This document shows positions 521 through 21,988 of a stretch of DNA of 64,000 nt, one piece after another (position 1 is the first letter of the stretch; each line of letters begins with the position of its first letter). This stretch comes from Cyanocohniella sp. LLY (lineage in GTDB: Bacteria; Cyanobacteriota; Cyanobacteriia; Cyanobacteriales; Nostocaceae): the NCBI GenBank assembly GCA_022241785.1, contig JAKOMP010000022.1, positions 1 through 64,000 of the forward strand, given 5' to 3'. The notes beneath the pieces are model-generated. The model was not told the origin of the DNA, searched no databases, and saw only the letters and a program-made list of their open reading frames with translations. Position numbers and translations under genes: made by a program.

Positions 521-526
521 TTGTTA

Positions 527-1348
527 ATGAAAATAAACAGAAACAACCACAATTTATCTAGACAAATTATTAAAGAAATATCCCAAAAAATAGGAAATTT
601 TATTCCATCTATTGCTGGGATTTTATTTTTATTAAGTATTTGGCATTTATTAAGTTTAAGTCCTAATACCTTATTACCTTCTCCCATCGAAGTTGTGATT
701 AACACTGGAGATTTAATTAAAAATCCATTTTTTAATCATGGAGGACATAATAAAGGTTTTTTTTGGTTAATTTTAGCTAGTTTAAAAAGAGTTGTTATAG
801 GCTATTTTTTCGCGGTAATTGTGGGTATTCCCATTGGTTTTATTATTAGTCTCAACAGCTTTTGTAGAAAAGCCATTGATCCGATTATCCAATTGCTGCG
901 CCCTGTAGCTCCATTAGCTTGGCTACCTATGGCGCAAGCAGTATTCCTGAAACCAAATCCTTCAGCTATTTTTGTAATTTTTATTACTGCTATTTGGCCA
1001 ATAATTCTCAATACTGCCTTGGGTGTACAGCTTGTACCAAAAGATTATATTAATGTCTCTAAAATATTAGGTTTATCAATATTTGAAAATTTCTGGCAAA
1101 TTTTATTACCTGCAACTCTGCCTTATATATTTACAGGGCTAAGAATCGCTATTGGTTTATCTTGGCTAGCTGTTGTAGCAGCCGAAATGCTACTTTCTGA
1201 TGATGGAATTGGCTTTTTTATTGTTGATGCTTACAACAATGCCAATATCCATGAAATTATCTTGGCGATTGTTTATCTCGGTGGAGTTGGTTTAGTTTTA
1301 GATAAAATTATGGCTTATATTTCTACCAAAGTAACTGCTCAAGAATAA
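527..1348 (+). CDS. ABC transporter permease, NrtB/SsuC family
   Basis: Inner-membrane permease of a nitrate/bicarbonate/cyanate/alkanesulfonate-type ABC importer (BPD_transp_1 fold). Several hydrophobic segments are visible, and the EAA-type cytoplasmic loop that docks on the ATPase is recognisable at about residues 180-200 (SKILGLSIFENFWQILLPA). The length of about 273 aa fits the family. A TTG at 521 is in frame, but the ATG at 527 is preferred. It heads an operon with an ATPase 54 bp downstream and a binding protein after that. The substrate cannot be assigned from the permease alone. Confidence 0.85.
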   Translation: MKINRNNHNLSRQIIKEISQKIGNFIPSIAGILFLLSIWHLLSLSPNTLLPSPIEVVINTGDLIKNPFFNHGGHNKGFFWLILASLKRVVIGYFFAVIVGIPIGFIISLNSFCRKAIDPIIQLLRPVAPLAWLPMAQAVFLKPNPSAIFVIFITAIWPIILNTALGVQLVPKDYINVSKILGLSIFENFWQILLPATLPYIFTGLRIAIGLSWLAVVAAEMLLSDDGIGFFIVDAYNNANIHEIILAIVYLGGVGLVLDKIMAYISTKVTAQE

Positions 1349-1402
1349 TTTTTGTTTAAATAATCCGCGGGAAACATACACGTCAAACATAAAGGAAATA
1401 TT

Positions 1403-2197
1403 GTGTCTAGTTTTGTAGAAATCAGGGGTATAGACAAAGAATTTACTCTCAAGAATGGAACGTATAATATTGTTCTCCAAGAAATTAATTTGGACATTAA
1501 ACAGGGAAAATTTGTTTCTCTTATTGGTCATTCTGGTTGTGGCAAATCTACCTTACTAAATATAGTTGCAGGTTTAGAAAAACCAACGAGAGGACGGGTA
1601 AAAGTTGATGGTCAATTAGTTAAAAAACCTACCCGCGATCGCATGGTGGTTTTTCAGAATTATTCTCTCTTACCTTGGCTGACTGCTTGGGAGAATGTGG
1701 CGTTATTTGTCAACAAAGCCATGCCTCATAAATCGAAATATGAACGCCAGGAAATTATTGCTTCTCATTTAGAAATGGTGGGCTTGCAAGACGCTGCATC
1801 GAAGAAACCAAGGCAACTTTCTGGAGGGATGAAACAGCGAGTTGCATTGGCAAGGGCTTTAGCAATTCAGCCCAAATTACTGCTATTAGATGAGCCATTT
1901 GGAGCATTAGATGCATTAACTCGTGGTTCTTTACAAGTAGAGTTGATGCGAATTTGTGAAGCACATCATATCACAACAATAATGGTGACTCATGATGTAG
2001 ATGAAGCGTTGTTACTTTCTGATCAGATTGTCATGTTGAAAAATGGCCCGGCTGCAACCATTGGTCAAATTTTAGATGTACCTTTTAAACACCCGCGTTC
2101 TCTAGAAATCAAGGATTGTTCGGAATATCATCTGCTACGCCATGAACTGATGCATATCTTGCAGAACCAAGAACAAGCTAAACGTGTGAAAATCTGA
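1403..2197 (+). CDS. ABC transporter ATP-binding protein, NrtD/SsuB family
   Basis: Energy-coupling ATPase of the importer. Walker A GHSGCGKST lies at residues 42-50, the Q-loop at Q85, the signature LSGGMKQ at about 139-145, and Walker B LLLLDEPFGALD at about 159-170, followed by an MVTHD H-loop. It starts at GTG preceded by AAAGGA with good spacing. It is a single-domain ATPase of 264 aa, so it resembles NrtD/SsuB rather than NrtC, which carries an extra solute-binding domain. The next gene begins 1 bp after the stop, which indicates translational coupling. Confidence 0.9.
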   Translation: MSSFVEIRGIDKEFTLKNGTYNIVLQEINLDIKQGKFVSLIGHSGCGKSTLLNIVAGLEKPTRGRVKVDGQLVKKPTRDRMVVFQNYSLLPWLTAWENVALFVNKAMPHKSKYERQEIIASHLEMVGLQDAASKKPRQLSGGMKQRVALARALAIQPKLLLLDEPFGALDALTRGSLQVELMRICEAHHITTIMVTHDVDEALLLSDQIVMLKNGPAATIGQILDVPFKHPRSLEIKDCSEYHLLRHELMHILQNQEQAKRVKI

Positions 2198-2198
2198 C

Positions 2199-3497
2199 AT
2201 GGCAAAATTTCACAGACGCAAATTCATTGCCACTGCTAGTGCAGCTGCTTTAACTCATAGCTGCACAAGTCGTTTGACTTATCATGTTATGACTAGTCAG
2301 TTGCATCACAGTATTTATGCGAGTCACGTCGATACACCTGAAGTCACCACCGCAACCTTAGGCTTTATTCCCGTAACGAGTTGTTGTCCTGTGATTATTG
2401 CCAAAGTGAAGGGATTTTTTGCTAAATATGGGATGCCTGATGTTCGCGTTGTCAAGCAGCCTTCCTGGGCGGTTATGCGTGACAAATTGATGTTAGGCGC
2501 TGCTAATGATGGTTTAGATGGTGGTCATTTGCTGTTTCCCATGACTTATCTCATGGCTACAGGAGAAATTAGCTATGGGCGAAAAATCCCCATGTACATC
2601 TTGGCAAGACTGAATGTAAATGGACAGGGGATATCTGTTGCTAATACCTATAAAGATTTAAATTTAAGTCTCGATAGTTCGCCTTTAAAATCGATTTATG
2701 CTCAAAAAACACTAGCCGGAGAAACTGTACGTTGTGCAGTTCCCTATCGTCGGGTGACAGGCGATTTTTTTATGCGCTGGTGGTTAGCTTACGGTGGTAT
2801 TGATCCTGACCGAGATACATCAGTAATTGTGGTTCCTCCACCTCAGATGGTTGCAAGTATGCGGAGTGGAAGTATGGAAGCTTTTTGTGTGGTTGATCCT
2901 TGGCATCATCGATTAATTAAACAAGGGCTGGGTTATTCAACTGTCACAAGTGGGGAATTGTGGAATAATCACCCGGAAAAAGCCTTGACAGTGCGGGCTG
3001 AATGGGTGGATAAGTACCCTAAGGCAGCAAAGGCACTTCTGGCGGCTGTGATGGAGGCGCAAATTTGGTGTGATCAGCTAGAAAATAAAGCAGAACTGTT
3101 TGAGATCATGTCACAACGGCAGTGGATAGGTGTAAAAAGTGATTTGATCCGCGATCGCTTGTTAGGCACAATAGATTACGGCAATGGACGTGTGGTAAAA
3201 AATAGCCCTCATGCCATCAAGTACTGGCGGGAAAATGCTTCCTACCCTTTCAAAAGTCACGACTTATGGTTTTTAATTGAAGATATGCGTTGGGGTAATC
3301 GTTCCCCTGATTTTGAAACAAAACCCTTAATTGATGCGGTTAACCGTGAAGATTTATGGCGAGAAGCGGCTAAATTCATTGGTCAAGAAGCCGCTATTCC
3401 AGCCAGTACATCTCGTGGTATAGAAAAATTTTTTAATGGGTTAGAATTTGACCCAGAAAATCCGCAAGCTTATTTGAATGCACCCAAGATGAGATGA
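2199..3497 (+). CDS. NrtA/CmpA-family substrate-binding lipoprotein
   Basis: Periplasmic solute-binding component. The N-terminus has a twin-arginine-like HRRKFIATASAAA segment followed by a possible lipobox cysteine (C22). The mature part follows the NrtA/CmpA pattern: TLGFIPVT near residue 54, the AK-x-KGFFAKYGM stretch, a W-AVMRD-K segment, GGHLLFPMTYLMATG, and a C-terminal W-R-x-NASYPFKSHDLWFL region. Known relatives bind nitrate, nitrite, bicarbonate or cyanate. The gene is last in the operon, whereas nrt and cmp operons usually start with the binding protein. No nitrate reductase, nitrite reductase or cyanase gene is nearby, so the ligand is open. Confidence 0.85.
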   Translation: MAKFHRRKFIATASAAALTHSCTSRLTYHVMTSQLHHSIYASHVDTPEVTTATLGFIPVTSCCPVIIAKVKGFFAKYGMPDVRVVKQPSWAVMRDKLMLGAANDGLDGGHLLFPMTYLMATGEISYGRKIPMYILARLNVNGQGISVANTYKDLNLSLDSSPLKSIYAQKTLAGETVRCAVPYRRVTGDFFMRWWLAYGGIDPDRDTSVIVVPPPQMVASMRSGSMEAFCVVDPWHHRLIKQGLGYSTVTSGELWNNHPEKALTVRAEWVDKYPKAAKALLAAVMEAQIWCDQLENKAELFEIMSQRQWIGVKSDLIRDRLLGTIDYGNGRVVKNSPHAIKYWRENASYPFKSHDLWFLIEDMRWGNRSPDFETKPLIDAVNREDLWREAAKFIGQEAAIPASTSRGIEKFFNGLEFDPENPQAYLNAPKMR

Positions 3498-8231: not shown

Positions 8232-9911
8232 ATGAGTATCAAAATCCAGGCTACTGAAAATCCTATTTGTAAAGTTTTTAGCAATGATTTTATTTTTACT
8301 ATACCTTTATATCAACGTCCCTACGCCTGGACAACTGAGCAAACAGGAGAACTCTTGGAAGATTTAATTATTGCCTTAGGAGATGGAGACGATAAAATTG
8401 ATGAGATCAATCCATATTTTTTAGGAAGTATTGTACTTATCAAAGGAGATAAACCAGATGCTCAAGTTGTAGATGGTCAACAGCGTCTAACCACACTCAC
8501 TATATTTTTAGCAGCTTTACGGGCATTAGTGCCTAAAGAATTTACGCATAGATTAACCAAATATCTCTACCAAGAAGATGATTTTGATTCAGATAATAAT
8601 GTTTATCGTTTGACAATACGTGAGCGAGATGCACATTTTTTTCAGAAATATATTCAAGATGCAAATGGTATTGAAAAAATCAAAGAAGTTCATACTGCTA
8701 AACTATCTGATACTTGCAAAAATATTAAAGAAAATGCAGAATTTGTTGTAGATAATTTACGTAAATTTACTAAAATTCAGCTTATTCGCCTTACTCAGTA
8801 TATCCTAAATAGATGTTTTCTAGTAGTAGTGGGTACGCCAGATATTGATTCTGCGTATAGAATATTTTCTGTACTCAATAATCGAGGTATGGATTTATCT
8901 CATGCTGATATTTTAAAAGCCGAAATTATCGGTAAAATCCCAATGATTCAGCAAGAACAATATAGCCATAAATGGGAAGAAATAGAAGAAAAATTAGGAC
9001 GTGATATATTTAAAAGTCTATTTTCACACATCAGAATGATTTATGGTAAATGTAAACCACGTGAGAGTATACTCAAGGAATTTATTAAAGATGTTAAACC
9101 TACTAGTTTTCCCCAGCAATTTATTGATAAAACTTTGACTCCTCTCGCTGATGCTTTTTACGATATTCAGAATTATGCATATCAAAGTGATAAGTTAACA
9201 GTAGAAATAAACAAAATATTTAAATGGTTGAAATATATCGATAATTCTGATTGGATACCACCAGCTATTTTTTATTTATCACAAAATTATAATCAGCCGG
9301 AAATATTATTAAGATTTTTTGCGGATTTAGATCGTCTAGCTTCAGGGTTAATGATTCAACGCAGCAATATTAATGAACGAATAGAACGTTATAGCAAATT
9401 ACTACACGCCATTGAAAAAAAGGAAGATTTATATCAACAAAATTCACCACTGCAATTGCAACCTCAAGAGCAAACAAATATCATCAATATTCTCAACGAA
9501 GATATTTATTTAATTAGTAAAATACGACTTTATGTTTTACTACGTCTAGACTCTGCCTTGTCAGAAGGTAAAGCTGAATATCATTTTTCTAATATTACTG
9601 TTGAGCATGTATTACCACAAAATCCAGCGCCTCAAAGTGAGTGGATGCATTGTTTTCCCAGCAAAGAAGAACGGGAGAAATATGTCCAACGTATAGGTAA
9701 CTTAGTTTTACTATCTTCTCGGAAAAATAGTCAGGCAAAGAACTATGACTTTGAAATTAAAAAGCAGAAGTATTTCACTACCAAGGCAGGTATTTGTAAT
9801 TTTGCACTGACCACTCAAGTGTTAACAGAAAAGGAATGGACACCTGATGTAATAAAACGACGGCAGAAAACTCTGATTGAAAAGCTAAAACAAGTTTGGC
9901 GTCTAAAGTAA
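8232..9911 (+). CDS. GmrSD-type restriction protein (DUF262-DUF1524)
   Basis: A single 559-aa polypeptide joining both halves of a type IV restriction system. The N-terminal DUF262 has YQRPYAW (residues 27-33) and DGQQRLTTL (81-89), the DNA-sulfiredoxin-like nucleotide-binding part. The C-terminal DUF1524 has an HNH-like motif, EHVLPQ from residue 458 and RIGNLVLLSSRKNSQAKN around 487-504. Fused GmrSD enzymes cleave modified (glycosylated or methylated) phage DNA. The start follows AAGGTGAT. No methylase or other restriction subunit is adjacent, which fits a modification-dependent enzyme. Its AT-richness is similar to its flanks. Confidence 0.85.
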   Translation: MSIKIQATENPICKVFSNDFIFTIPLYQRPYAWTTEQTGELLEDLIIALGDGDDKIDEINPYFLGSIVLIKGDKPDAQVVDGQQRLTTLTIFLAALRALVPKEFTHRLTKYLYQEDDFDSDNNVYRLTIRERDAHFFQKYIQDANGIEKIKEVHTAKLSDTCKNIKENAEFVVDNLRKFTKIQLIRLTQYILNRCFLVVVGTPDIDSAYRIFSVLNNRGMDLSHADILKAEIIGKIPMIQQEQYSHKWEEIEEKLGRDIFKSLFSHIRMIYGKCKPRESILKEFIKDVKPTSFPQQFIDKTLTPLADAFYDIQNYAYQSDKLTVEINKIFKWLKYIDNSDWIPPAIFYLSQNYNQPEILLRFFADLDRLASGLMIQRSNINERIERYSKLLHAIEKKEDLYQQNSPLQLQPQEQTNIINILNEDIYLISKIRLYVLLRLDSALSEGKAEYHFSNITVEHVLPQNPAPQSEWMHCFPSKEEREKYVQRIGNLVLLSSRKNSQAKNYDFEIKKQKYFTTKAGICNFALTTQVLTEKEWTPDVIKRRQKTLIEKLKQVWRLK

Positions 9912-17674: not shown

Positions 17675-18060
17675 TTTTATTAAACCGCCTTCTCGCAAAG
17701 CATACCCTTGAAGGCTTTAGTCGCCAAGGACGCAGAGAAATCAAAAAAATTGAAGTTGAGGCATTATAACAAAAGTAAATTATATAGGACTTACGCACTC
17801 GCTACGAAAATCAAGGCTTTGAGATTGCTTCCCTACGGTCGCAATGACGAAAATACGTGTTTGGTTACGTAAGTCCTGTTATATTTGCACATTGGGTATG
17901 CCCTCTTCTGTAATATTGGATACTACTATTAAAACATGTTAAAAAATCTTACTTGCAGCTAATTTAATATAAATAGCTGAAAGGTAATTTGCATCTTTAA
18001 ATTAATGCGATCGCTTTCATGAAAAACAGTCATCAAATCTCAGCGTATCACTTCCAATAA
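17675..18060. other. Intergenic region holding a MITE-like element
   Basis: 386 bp between the DUF711 gene and the peptide cluster. It contains CGCCAAGGACGCAGAG-type low-complexity repeat sequence near 17730 and the element at 17786-17877. No gene is seen. Confidence 0.5.
17786..17877. mobile_element. MITE-like element, copy 1
   Basis: A 92-bp non-coding element bounded by the inverted repeats AGGACTTACG and CGTAAGTCCT. The flanks carry a 6-bp direct repeat TTATAT (17780-17785 and 17879-17884, with one extra G on the right side), which looks like a target-site duplication. The same termini bound a second element at 22181-22271. It encodes no transposase. Confidence 0.7.
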
Positions 18061-18306
18061 CTAAAGATAAAACCAGTTGTAAATAGACCTTGAATAATCT
18101 ATTGTGTAAATTTTGTTATCGTGGAAGTTGAGCGAATAAGCACCAGTGTAGTAGACATGCTCAATACTGTTTATGCCATCACTGACATTGATTAAATTAA
18201 CAGACATATAACCGCCTAGTACAGTATCACATTCGGATAAATTCAAATTATGCAAAAATATCCCTACATCAGTAGGATGGAAGTAAGAAATTACAATTTT
18301 AGCCAT
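18061..18306 (-). CDS. Double-glycine leader peptide A
   Basis: An 81-aa precursor-like peptide. Residues 1-32 form a leader that ends in LGG (L30, G31, G32) after an acidic helix-like stretch with S24, E25 and V29, matching the pattern of bacteriocin leaders cut by C39 peptidases. The predicted core is 49 aa with N-V-S-D-G-I-N near its start and DNKIYTIDYSRSIYN near its end. Leader and C-terminal core resemble peptide D, while the start of the core resembles peptide B. It lies 56 bp downstream of B on the same strand. No function is known for the core. Confidence 0.75.
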   Translation of the reverse strand: MAKIVISYFHPTDVGIFLHNLNLSECDTVLGGYMSVNLINVSDGINSIEHVYYTGAYSLNFHDNKIYTIDYSRSIYNWFYL

Positions 18307-18362
18307 TATTCCAGTTCCCCAATTAAAAATTAAAATTTGCTTGTATTCCCCCTCACAAATGT

Positions 18363-18626
18363 TTAAGTTCCGTTAGTCCACCGAAAAACCTGTGGCGCTC
18401 CTATAGGTAAGACATATACCATATTAATAGTTAGCCTTGAAAGATCAATCGTAAAAAGCTTGTTGCTATCCATAGAAAACAGGCTAATCCTATTTGAAAC
18501 GTTATTTATACCATCTTGAACGTTAGCCAAATTAACACCAGCAATACCTCCTAATAAAATAGTAGATTCTTCAAAAGAGACGTGGATACACAGTTCGTTA
18601 TTTTCGAGATCAATGATTTGCAGCAT
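18363..18626 (-). CDS. Double-glycine leader peptide B
   Basis: An 87-aa peptide whose first 27 residues (MLQIIDLENNELCIHVSFEE and on to LLGG) are nearly the same as the leader of peptide C. The predicted 60-aa core begins IAGVNLANVQDGINNV, which aligns with the core start of A, and continues with DSNKLFTIDLSR, a variant of the DNKI-T-DYSR motif. A C-terminal tail of about 20 residues is unique to this copy. It probably heads a transcript that includes A. Its upstream region is duplicated from that of C, with a repeat inserted. Confidence 0.72.
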   Translation of the reverse strand: MLQIIDLENNELCIHVSFEESTILLGGIAGVNLANVQDGINNVSNRISLFSMDSNKLFTIDLSRLTINMVYVLPIGAPQVFRWTNGT

Positions 18627-18960
18627 AGTGTGTAATTAAAAGTATTAGGGTCAAAAGTGAAGGGGCATTTTTCATAGCGAAAAGATACGCACATCATATC
18701 CAGTCACAGATACAGCTTTTTGCAGATAAATGAAGTACAGACTTACATATTGTAAACCTTGTAGAGTAGGCATACTTCTCTACGAGACGCTACGCGGTAA
18801 GCGCAGCTATGCCCTTCAGGGCTTTACGACAAGTGTTACGGTGAGCTTGCCGAACTGCTCAGTACAAGTCTTACCTGCTATTATGTACCTCATCGACACC
18901 AAATATGCTGTAATATCAAAGCCAATATCCAAGTAAATTGTTTGAGGAAACTGTTGATTT
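18627..18960. other. Upstream region of peptide B with inserted REP-like repeat
   Basis: Positions 18669-18712 match the upstream region of peptide C (19208-19252), including a TTTTTCATAGCGAAAA block and CCAGTCACAGAT. A second matching block, ATATCCAAGTAA, lies near 18925 here and 19264 there. Between the two blocks this copy has about 210 extra bases that include the 43-nt repeat at 18786-18828. No gene is called here. Confidence 0.55.
18786..18828 (+). repeat. REP-like 43-nt interspersed repeat, copy 1
   Basis: A 43-nt sequence (GACGCTACGCGGTAAGCGCA and on to GGGCTTTACG) whose exact reverse complement is at 57026-57068. A shorter variant lies inside the response-regulator gene at about 30297-30322. 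Units of this palindromic kind are common in Nostoc genomes. Confidence 0.8.
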
Positions 18961-19170
18961 TCAAGCAATTGGGTTCCGAAACTCTGACCCAAGAGAGCTA
19001 ACTGCAAACGCGAGTAACCCAGCAAAAAGTCCGGCGGTTAGAGCAGCTGCTCCGAAAGCATAGGATGCGACTTGACCGTTACTAATTTGACCACCACTAA
19101 CAGTAGTAGATTCTTTGGGAGATACTTGGGTGAACAGTTCGTTATTTTCGAGATCAATAATTTGCAGCAT
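18961..19170 (-). CDS. Double-glycine leader peptide C, hydrophobic Gly/Ala-rich core
   Basis: A 69-aa peptide. The ATG at 19170 is chosen because it matches the start of peptide B; an in-frame ATG at 19233 would add 21 residues. The leader of 27 residues ends VSGG. The predicted 42-aa core is unlike A, B and D: QISNGQVASYAFGAAALTAG followed by an alanine/leucine-rich hydrophobic stretch and a polar tail. This resembles the membrane-active cores of class II bacteriocins. The leader (NNELF-x-x-VS) also resembles cyanobacterial CTB-type bacteriocin leaders. Confidence 0.75.
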   Translation of the reverse strand: MLQIIDLENNELFTQVSPKESTTVSGGQISNGQVASYAFGAAALTAGLFAGLLAFAVSSLGSEFRNPIA

Positions 19171-19726
19171 ATAATTAACAGCATCCGTTAAAGAATAAAG
19201 TGACACTTTTTCATAGCGAAAAAGGATGCACATGGTTTCCAGTCACAGATCACATCAAGGTAAATATCCAAGTAAGTTATTTGCTGATCATCAAACTTCC
19301 TTGTTTATTTTTGTTATGAACTTAATAGTGAATCGTTCCTATTCTCTTTAACGAATACTCGATACAAAATATTCCAAAAAAATATATTTATGCCAAATTA
19401 AGCCAGAGCAGTTAATCTATAATTTGTCGTCACTTAACTCTCAAAAGCCTCAATATGTAAAGTTTATATAAAAATATTACTCCTCCCCTGGGTGCAGAAT
19501 TTGACTGACTTAAGACGTTATGGAAGACTCTACTATAAAACTTTGGTAAATTCTAAATACTCCACTAAGTAGAGTCAGGTCAATTGACACAGCAGTAGTG
19601 TGTGAAACGCTTACTTTTTAAATTTAGGAAAAACAAACCCGGATTTATTGTTTGTAATAAATCCGGGTCATTATCAAAAACTTGATAAAGAATTTTTTGC
19701 GCCACAGTTACAACAATTATCAAAAA
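19171..19726. other. Intergenic region between peptides C and D
   Basis: 556 bp. The part next to C (19208-19284) is the upstream block shared with peptide B. A strong hairpin at 19637-19668 marks the end of the peptide D transcript. The rest is AT-rich without a gene. Confidence 0.5.
19637..19668 (-). terminator. Intrinsic terminator after peptide D
   Basis: A perfect 13-bp stem, ACCCGGATTTATT and AATAAATCCGGGT, with a 6-nt loop. Read on the minus strand it is followed by TTGTTTTTCC, a U-rich tail. It lies about 60 nt after the stop of peptide D. Confidence 0.8.
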
Positions 19727-19990
19727 CTAATAAATGACGGTATTGTAGATTGACCTTGAATAATCTACTGTATGAATTTTATTATCATGGTAGCTGGTCG
19801 AATGGTTAACAGCTTCATACGTATTATCTCCTCCTGAAGGATTGATTGTTATGCTGTCAGTAACATTCATTATATGAAAACTATAAGGATAACCACCTCC
19901 CAATATATTTTCAGCTTGCTCTGGAGTTAAAATGTGGATAACTGTTTTTACGGAATTAGGATGTAAGGCAGAAATTACAATTTTAGTCAT
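19727..19990 (-). CDS. Double-glycine leader peptide D
   Basis: An 87-aa precursor-like peptide with the clearest canonical leader of the four: HILTPEQAENILGG ending at G31-G32, the classic L-x-x-E-x-L/I-x-x-I-x-G-G bacteriocin pattern. The predicted 55-aa core contains HIMNVTDSIT near its start and YHDNKIHTVDYSRSIYN near its end, shared with peptide A. GAGGAG sits 8-10 nt before the ATG, the strongest ribosome site in the cluster. It has its own terminator. The function is unknown; a secreted, possibly processed peptide is inferred. Confidence 0.8.
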   Translation of the reverse strand: MTKIVISALHPNSVKTVIHILTPEQAENILGGGYPYSFHIMNVTDSITINPSGGDNTYEAVNHSTSYHDNKIHTVDYSRSIYNTVIY

Positions 19991-20501: not shown

Positions 20502-21149
20502 ATGCTATTACAACAGGAATCATTGTCTTATTATCAAGAAATACTGGTCAGATTAGACTATCGCCAGAGATTAGAAAAGATTGCCCGCAAATATACTAAC
20601 GGAACAGGTTTATATTGGGAAGATGCTTTTCAAATTGCCCATTTAAAAGTCTTAATGGCTTTTCAAGCAGGAAAATTTAAGCAAGGAAGTATAGAACAGT
20701 TTTATTACTGGGCTGTTACTGTAGCTAGATGTGTAATTATTGATTCTGTTCGTAAAGAAAGCCTGCGTAAATACCAGAGTTTAGATGATAAAATCCCAGG
20801 TACAGATATTTTTTTATTAGACACAATTCCTGATGAGTTTAATACATCGGAGGCAATAGAGCGTGCAGATTTAATTCTCAAAGCATTAGAGTCTATTTAT
20901 GAACTTGAAAAATACTATCCACACCGGAATTATCTTAAATTATGGCAAGGAAAAGTTGATGGTAAAACACAAACTCAACTTGCCACCGAATTAAGAATTA
21001 GTCAGGGTGAAGTCTCTAAGCGATGGCAAGAACTATTAGGGCGTATTGCTGAGTTATTAGGACTATTAGAAATTAAAGATATGAAGGATAACCTGAAAAA
21101 AGCTCGACAACATAATAGAGGAAATAATCGCTCAATACAGCAGTGGTAA
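20502..21149 (+). CDS. Sigma-70 family RNA polymerase sigma factor
   Basis: A 215-aa sigma factor of the small, ECF-like type. Region 2 is readable at about residues 35-90 (WEDAFQIAHLKVLMAFQAGKF, then FYYWAVTVARCVIIDSVRKE). Region 4 is an HTH at about 150-190 (DGKTQTQLATELRISQGEVS). The C-terminal 25 residues are basic and asparagine/glutamine-rich. It is not a primary or group 2 sigma factor, since regions 1.2 and 3 are lacking. It is divergent from the double-glycine peptide cluster and followed 134 bp later by an unknown gene that may be its partner. Confidence 0.82.
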   Translation: MLLQQESLSYYQEILVRLDYRQRLEKIARKYTNGTGLYWEDAFQIAHLKVLMAFQAGKFKQGSIEQFYYWAVTVARCVIIDSVRKESLRKYQSLDDKIPGTDIFLLDTIPDEFNTSEAIERADLILKALESIYELEKYYPHRNYLKLWQGKVDGKTQTQLATELRISQGEVSKRWQELLGRIAELLGLLEIKDMKDNLKKARQHNRGNNRSIQQW

Positions 21150-21283: not shown

Positions 21284-21988
21284 ATGTATGTAAATTCAGA
21301 TAAATTCATTTTTTTAAATCAGCAGAGTTGTAGTATCTCAATACCACAACCTGGAGAAATTTGGCAAGTGAATTACTTAGTACAAAGTCCTCTAACTTTT
21401 GTTAGACAAGAACAACATACTTTATATTCTTCTTTAGCACTAAGTTTTTTGACTGGTAACTTACCACCGCGCTATGTAATGATTGTTAAAGAACCTGAAT
21501 TATCTGAAAAATTAGAGGAGCAGTGGTTGATTATTTATGTAATGTTGCTATCGGGAGAAACAAATTTTATTAATAATATGGATTTACTGATTCCTGCCAA
21601 TATATCAGGCTTAGAGCAAGATTTATTGGCAGAGACTTGGCATATTATTCCGGCGTTGGTTTGTAACTTAATACAGCCAGTTGGTAAACGACTGTCCCGC
21701 CAAATTTATGACTATCTACTGACAGTCAGAGATTATCATCATGGGTTGATTGATCAACTACCAGCAACAATAGAAACCCAGTCATTAGGGTTCACATCTG
21801 AGAGCTTATACTCTACAAATAATTCAAAAATTCAAGATTTTCATGAAGCAGAAAAAGCCTGGAGTGATGTATTGACAGTGCCAGTAGCAGCTTACTATAC
21901 TTACTTGAAAAGTATAAATTTTACCAATGTCATATTAGATGAAGCATTGCAATTAGAACAAGACTTACAATCTGACATTGGTGATTAA
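21284..21988 (+). CDS. Unknown protein downstream of sigma factor
   Basis: A 234-aa protein of no family that I recognise. The N-terminal third is beta-rich (QQSCSISIPQPGEIWQVNY, a short GEIW-type strand motif). The middle is acidic and leucine-rich, and the C-terminus is helical and acidic (LDEALQLEQDLQSD). There is no signal peptide and no membrane segment. Its position after the sigma factor on the same strand suggests a regulatory partner, for example an anti-sigma or adaptor protein, but that is inference from position only. Confidence 0.65.
   Translation: MYVNSDKFIFLNQQSCSISIPQPGEIWQVNYLVQSPLTFVRQEQHTLYSSLALSFLTGNLPPRYVMIVKEPELSEKLEEQWLIIYVMLLSGETNFINNMDLLIPANISGLEQDLLAETWHIIPALVCNLIQPVGKRLSRQIYDYLLTVRDYHHGLIDQLPATIETQSLGFTSESLYSTNNSKIQDFHEAEKAWSDVLTVPVAAYYTYLKSINFTNVILDEALQLEQDLQSDIGD

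Follow-up and report, generated by a model that had tools for sequence, protein, structure and literature searches.

What does a row of small genes encode whose products carry leaders ending in a double glycine (GG), when the DNA around them appears to hold no peptide exporter? We addressed this question for four minus-strand genes, A, C, B and D, of Cyanocohniella sp. LLY (assembly GCA_022241785.1, contig JAKOMP010000022.1, positions 1 to 64,000); this whole 64-kb stretch is called the window below. On balance, we lean toward a reading in which the genes encode small exported peptides that would be cut and exported by a peptidase-containing ATP-binding cassette (ABC) transporter (PCAT) from another contig of the same genome, C149, and in which cores of two types, Y and L, would form a surface or matrix assembly. 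GG-leader PCAT cargo is a known kind of peptide. What seems new is a conserved core of two types, its separation from the exporter in its own genome, and its place in a HetC-related locus that bears HopA1.

Three of four GG-leader peptides share a conserved core

The initial annotation, made from the sequence alone, described four minus-strand open reading frames (ORFs) of 69-87 amino acids whose leaders of 27 or 32 residues end in GG, and the sequence confirmed this (32, 27, 27 and 32 residues for A, C, B and D, respectively). Such leaders lie within the range of PCAT cargo (about 15-35 residues ending in GG, or in GA or GS). A, B and D have NVxD in common (as NVTD, NVQD and NVSD), and A and D are identical over DYSRSIYN, both as originally reported. 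The reported end motif is likewise shared, but not in the form D-N/S-K-x-x-T-x-D-x-S-R: in B a Ser stands before N-K (DSNKLFTIDLSR), so the motif reads [D/S]-N-K-x-x-T-x-D-x-S-R. Membership of the core family held for A, B and D and not for C, which has the leader of B but not the core motif.

Among 42 aligned relatives, picked by hand, M1 and D76 (numbering of A) are invariant, and G31, N70, T74, S78 and R79 occur in at least 90%. Neither Pfam nor NCBIfam has a model for the core of A, B or D, and the 42 members drew only scattered weak matches: 'CTB family bacteriocin' (NF038167) in three of them (best E 0.0013) and in none of A-D, and Bacteriocin_IIc (E 0.026), Mersacidin (E 0.048) and BlpC pheromone (E 0.028) in one each. 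The same scans gave no match to NHLP or Nif11 leader models, which the libraries presumably include, for either A-D or the 42 members. Solved structures returned nine matches at chance level (best E 0.3). The proposal of a family of precursors with GG leaders and a conserved core was upheld; no curated family matches that core. The proposal was to be given up if homologues lacked the leader or if the core belonged to a characterized domain; in nearly all homologues examined the leader still ends in a GG-like pair, and no described domain includes the core. Within the accessible text of the literature we found no description of this core family, although Table S3 of Wang 2011 may list members as 'Other'.

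Within the host family, a search with A detected relatives at E<=0.1 in 61 of 217 genomes, spread over 24 of 56 genera; in 50 of these genomes the match reached E<=1e-3. With a profile built from the 42 members, 41 of 388 genomes in a sample of the order matched at E<=0.001, 38 of them within the family; the three outside it matched weakly (E 1e-4 to 9e-4) and over part of the profile only. At the same threshold 25 of 386 genomes in a sample of the phylum matched, all within the family. These two samples overlap, at most 14 candidates were scored per genome, and several of the within-family matches cover the leader only, as do some of the 147 ORFs gathered by an iterated profile over the fetched loci. 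A scan of genome contigs reduced 138 pattern matches to two relatives, in Cylindrospermum sp. FACHB-282 and Cuspidothrix issatschenkoi CHARLIE-1, which NCBI places in Nostocaceae and Aphanizomenonaceae, respectively; the family used in the search is thus a wide one, which we take to be Nostocaceae in the GTDB sense. None of 15 pattern matches in viral contigs was a relative, and a protein search of plasmids with A and B found none.

The ratio of nonsynonymous to synonymous substitution rates (dN/dS) was 0.34-0.46 for A and 0.19-0.39 for D (nine relatives each), 0.37-0.61 for B (eight relatives) and 0.23-0.48 for C (seven relatives). By these ratios, A-D look like real genes and are under purifying selection. 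The short ORFs lying between larger genes, the stops in some relatives and an exporter locus whose peptide slot is empty in the same genome (see below) might instead suggest chance ORFs or decaying relics, neither translated nor exported; with dN/dS of 0.19-0.61, and with leader and core kept across many genera, we regard this as scarcely credible.

Comparing all pairs within each group, which are not independent of one another, we found that the core surpassed the leader in conservation in 44 of 45 pairs for A and in 36 of 45 pairs for D. A family in which the core partly exceeds the leader in conservation suggests a fixed partner or structure.

Y and L cores are usually encoded together

The Y type, to which A and D belong, reads HDNKIxTxDYSRSxYN and is polar and aromatic, with a mean grand average of hydropathy (GRAVY) of -0.50 (n = 54). 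In the L type, DNKLFTxDFSR is followed by hydrophobic residues (mean GRAVY +0.28, and +1.35 over the last ten residues; n = 22); B, of this type, has NKLFTIDLSR and is hydrophobic towards its C-terminus. Type labels (Y, L, T, N and C) were given by custom patterns, and several clear relatives fall in 'other'. The 76 long-leader cores considered here are those of 79 Y/L peptides minus three without a leader end found by rule, with loci L032 and L033 omitted as duplicates of L054 and L070. Asn makes up 12% of their residues, Ser 10.5%, Ile 10%, Tyr 9% and Thr 8.9%, and Cys is found in none of the 76, nor in the cores of B and C. The core had been called non-classical, which is right in that it is Cys-free and wrong in that it is not poor in Ser and Thr. 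Membership of the lanthipeptides was rejected on the absence of Cys from all 76 cores; nor does a synthetase gene lie beside the precursors in the window, APH/HopA1 genes being on other contigs.

We compared 41 loci, namely the window and 40 stretches from matches of the search with A, taken from 35 genomes of which six gave two each; all were chosen as matches of a Y-type query and are not a random sample. In 34 loci there is exactly one L gene, accompanied by one to three Y genes (32 loci) or by two Y-variant copies (two loci), and the nearest L and Y genes lie less than 1 kb apart in 27 loci. Two complementary peptides encoded together, as in these 34 loci, are what a two-peptide bacteriocin calls for. 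Such a (class II-like) bacteriocin, in which Y and L cores, perhaps with C, would form a pore or lesion in competing cyanobacteria, is the main rival to our reading, though we judge it unlikely. It would account for the GG leaders, the single L gene in each of the paired loci, the patchy distribution (61 of 217 genomes), the Ala/Gly-rich, hydrophobic core of C with its GLFAG (noted by eye) and the weak matches to CTB, Bacteriocin_IIc, Mersacidin and BlpC models.

In 10 of the 41 loci devB and devC come after the L gene (L035, L037, L038, L040, L041, L042, L044, L046, L049 and L053), with a devA-like ATPase in nine of these, all but L041; DevB was named by TIGR02971 for one representative. These genes could act as immunity, but devBC is not present in the other 31 loci, and the window and L047 do without devB/devC despite shared flanking synteny. 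We also clustered 1676 ORFs of 30-99 amino acids around the 41 loci. Besides the peptides, only two sets recurred in at least four loci (five each), both over the stretch upstream of genes with a leader beginning MLQIID, so no small immunity-like ORF recurs, within the limit that larger, rarer or very divergent immunity genes could escape such clustering. Finally, the cores of A and D exceed their leaders in conservation, in contrast to the very little core conservation reported, as far as the available text goes, for cyanobacterial GG precursors sought within 20 kb of transporters (Wang 2011; PMC3140520).

At five loci (L040, L044, L046, L049 and L053) related GG peptides with another core lie on the strand opposite to the array. 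Their cores bear YCQxxExYPxxYIxNxT near the start and DNSRKIY near the end.

The candidate exporter lies on a separate contig

Within the window, comparison of 118 ORFs of at least 60 amino acids with exporter-locus proteins, and of 46 non-peptide proteins with Pfam, revealed no C39, HlyD, PpiC, APH or HopA1 homologue and no LanC-type domain. The sole ABC transporter seen there is a binding-protein-dependent importer at 521-3497 (permease, ATPase and NMT1-like binding protein). The earlier statement that the window holds no transporter or maturase was thus borne out for peptide exporters and maturases, and implies that export is encoded elsewhere. Indeed, the genome contains six C39 matches above the cut-off, one of which belongs to an exporter orthologous to that flanking Y/L genes in relatives.

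An operon of HlyD, PCAT and helix-turn-helix (HTH) genes adjoins Y and L genes in 11 of the 41 loci (11 genomes, 5 genera); a PpiC rotamase is present in six of the 11 and APH-HopA1 in five. The PCAT of locus L050 consists of a cyclic nucleotide monophosphate (cNMP)-binding, a C39, an ABC membrane and an ATPase domain. From HTH-gene matches we selected another 40 HTH-PCAT loci by hand, partly for nearby leader matches, so that they are not random; at least 38 show HlyD and at least 30 HopA1, as the stretches end early. Three of the 40 (G003, G075 and G002) carry an L-type gene between PpiC and HlyD, giving a total of 14 genomes with Y or L genes beside the HTH-PCAT-HlyD operon. The same order, HTH-PCAT-HlyD-PpiC, is found on contig C149 of the Cyanocohniella genome, with a PCAT of 1015 amino acids (C39 domain, 144 bits) that is 69.8-80.1% identical to the 11 PCATs of the Y/L loci (BLAST pieces of 752-1040 amino acids). 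As judged by sequence, the C149 PCAT-HlyD operon and the exporter found beside Y/L genes in relatives are orthologous. On C149, the peptide slot that separates HlyD from PpiC contains no ORF longer than 48 amino acids and no leader match. The genetic link to a C39 exporter is present in relatives, and in the genome studied here in trans only. Across the family, the operon's HTH gene (E<=1e-20) occurs in 61 of 61 genomes with relatives of A versus 135 of 156 without (Fisher p 6e-4, uncorrected for kinship, with one genome lacking the gene assigned by elimination).

We consider it likely, from these comparisons, that the export step falls to the C149 PCAT. With its own peptide slot empty, C149 PCAT-HlyD would cut the window peptides after GG and export cores of 42-60 residues. 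By eye, we also noticed a dispersed repeat bounded by CGTAAGTCCT that lies beside the array (window 17777-17886) and again inside the empty peptide slot (L084:2420-2510).

Upstream of the C149 operon are a HetC-like PCAT, 38-45% identical to the same 11 PCATs, and a HetP-family gene (NF037966, 119.9 bits). This HetC-like protein may be HetC itself, a reading that follows from HetP alongside and not from a comparison with the Nostoc sequence. An exporter operon adjoining such genes could suggest that the peptides are a cell-cell signal of heterocyst-forming filaments, sent through a HetC-related exporter. That the peptides, in the samples searched, occur in a single cyanobacterial family save for three weak partial matches would agree with this, as would the description of HetC (Nostoc PCC 7120) as a PCAT of unknown substrate (PMC10986499). 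With relatives in only 61 of 217 family genomes, however, the peptides are not part of a shared heterocyst programme, and we find a signalling role very improbable. As described in the available text of that paper, HetC has the domain order of the candidate exporter (cNMP, C39, membrane, ATPase) but neither a known substrate nor an adaptor gene close by, whereas the candidate exporter has HlyD and, in relatives, peptide genes. The locus also resembles the Group II 'bacteriocin' clusters (PMC3140520), which, in the part of that description available, combine a long-type PCAT with an N-terminal cNMP-type domain, HlyD, SurA/rotamase, HetP-like neighbours and small GG precursors nearby. It differs from them in that the Y/L core is conserved and of two types, and in that the window array and its exporter lie on separate contigs.

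Leader kinship links the peptides to APH/HopA1 loci

When the 40 further loci were searched with a profile of the 76 Y/L leaders, 22 of their 1764 small ORFs matched at E<1e-3, as against none among 1764 reversed decoys. Y/L genes account for three of these matches; the remaining 19 are different GG peptides, of which 14 adjoin APH. On this evidence, the Y/L peptides and the other GG peptides of those loci share one leader family, and we infer from it a common exporter. APH and HopA1 are a class V lanthipeptide-like kinase and lyase, and the genome studied here has two such pairs, on contigs C7 and C91 (L103:9167-11545 and L104:7201-9583). On C7, the pair is preceded by several 'MANITLSEL..GSELFQDSESFLNE..GG' peptides.

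In the cacaoidin pathway, proteins of these two kinds, APH (CaoK) and HopA1 (CaoY), dehydrate Ser and Thr, and cyanobacterial 'type B' precursors are noted in the available part of the same source (PMC9486802). Like these class V systems, the exporter locus of relatives combines APH, HopA1 and small GG peptides with a related leader; the Y/L system is unlike class V lanthipeptides in that its cores are Cys-free and no APH/HopA1 pair lies beside the window array. The claim that the peptides lack lanthipeptide features needs to be softened, since HopA1/APH in the exporter locus of many relatives makes modification possible. The cores could then be dehydrated, Cys-free ribosomally synthesized and post-translationally modified peptides, whose NKxxTxDxSR motif would be modified on Thr and Ser, before export, by APH/HopA1 encoded elsewhere in the genome. 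The kinship of the leaders, the two pairs in the genome, the presence of APH/HopA1 within 5 of the 11 Y/L-exporter loci and of HopA1 in at least 30 of the further 40, and the near invariance of T74 and S78 would all fit. Yet HopA1 occurs in 214 of 217 family genomes and does not track, and so does not predict, Y/L genes; the window lacks an APH/HopA1 homologue, and the 76 cores lack the Cys of a lanthionine. We think this quite improbable. A composite version, in which a HetC-related PCAT would export matched Y and L cores, possibly dehydrated in trans on Thr/Ser by APH/HopA1, that act jointly on neighbouring cells or the filament surface, and in which in some lineages the cargo would have moved from the exporter locus into a sigma-factor-linked array, strikes us as rather improbable.

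A possible surface or matrix role

Outside the cell, the Y and L cores would, in the reading toward which we lean, combine into a surface or matrix assembly of two components and not act as a toxin. We hold this last part tentatively, by analogy with EbfG1-4. Those GG peptides of Synechococcus elongatus PCC 7942 are needed for biofilm, and three of them form amyloid in a reporter system (PMC4997328, PMC9981879). As far as the available text of these papers goes, EbfG1-4 and PteB offer a parallel in a cyanobacterium: small GG-leader proteins without known domains, encoded in one operon, with secretion aided by a C39 ABC transporter. The likeness is one of description, and the matrix or amyloid role is that of EbfG; mature EbfG1-4 had no relatives in other cyanobacteria according to the 2016 paper (PMC4997328). 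A matrix role is favoured because the cores are conserved, Cys-free and rich in Asn, Ser, Thr, Tyr and Ile, and because no small immunity-like ORF recurs.

Several observations weigh against this reading. Structure prediction gave no fold (AlphaFold, A and six relatives, seven sequences; mean predicted local distance difference test score, pLDDT, 42), and hydrophobic-moment tests of A-D showed no strand or helix pattern beyond shuffles, so the assembly idea is without structural support. For B the core is ahead of the leader in just 23 of 36 pairs; for C this is so in 9 of 28, the leader being better conserved there. Pairing is incomplete, with seven of the 41 loci having no L gene and 7 of the 34 paired loci an L-Y gap of 3.4-3.6 kb, and the count is biased toward loci with Y genes because of how they were chosen. 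Some relatives of A are interrupted by stop codons, suggesting that loss is tolerated, and the leader-sharing relatives at L040, L044, L046, L049 and L053 have a Cys right after the leader (YCQ... after GG). As the HTH gene is present in 196 of 217 family genomes, its co-occurrence with relatives of A says little by itself. Patchy distribution and tandem copies would fit a bacteriocin too.

Organization of the array

The four genes lie beside a divergent sigma factor, with further elements between them (Table 1).

Table 1. Genes and elements of the array and its flank in the 64-kb window.
Feature	Position	Strand	Description
Gene D	18061-18306	-	81 aa, Y type; 32-aa leader ending in GG; core with HDNKIYTIDYSRSIYNWFYL
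Gene B	18363-18626	-	87 aa, L type; 27-aa MLQIID leader ending in GG
Conserved 5' element upstream of B	18627-18712 (approximate)	-	25-region alignment and repeat analysis
Gene C	18961-19170	-	69 aa; 27-aa MLQIID-type leader ending in GG; Ala/Gly-rich hydrophobic core
Conserved 5' element upstream of C	19171-19283 (approximate)	-	25-region alignment; repeats D3 and D4
Terminator-like hairpin 3' of A	19636-19669	-	14 pairs and T tract; consensus scan
Gene A	19727-19990	-	87 aa, Y type; 32-aa leader ending in GG; core GYPYSF...HDNKIHTVDYSRSIYNTVIY
Sigma-70-type sigma factor, divergent	20502-21149	+	adjoins array in 9 of 41 loci, the window among them
234-aa protein without Pfam match	21284-21988	+	comes after the sigma factor at those nine loci

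Because of the hairpin that follows it, A is probably a transcript of its own; the consensus scan gave two terminator-like sites against a mean of 1.3 in shuffles. B and D, 56 bp apart, are probably co-transcribed. By eye, GAGGAG precedes gene A, and an element of about 100-130 nt precedes most of 25 MLQIID-type genes at nine loci in an alignment. This 5' element may be a promoter or an untranslated region; an Rfam scan over the array, 5' elements included, gave one sub-threshold match and nothing above threshold. Duplication is visible at the DNA level in the 5' parts of B and C (85% identical over 68 nt), and the cores of A and D are 82% identical over a 61-nt stretch. The sigma factor and the 234-aa protein, divergent to the array, are a possible regulator. 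Farther off in the window (8232-9911) lies a GmrSD-type restriction endonuclease.

Implications for heterocyst-forming cyanobacteria

Catalogues of cyanobacterial GG peptides have relied on leader and exporter, and the cores are called barely conserved in the available text of one such survey (PMC3140520). A conserved core offers a handle on exporter function in heterocyst-forming filaments. The Y/L cargo family stands next to the class V lanthipeptide-like kinase/lyase pair that nearly every genome of the family carries. With it, HetC-related exporters gain a concrete cargo family to test, where the substrate of HetC itself is given as unknown in the accessible text of its description (PMC10986499).

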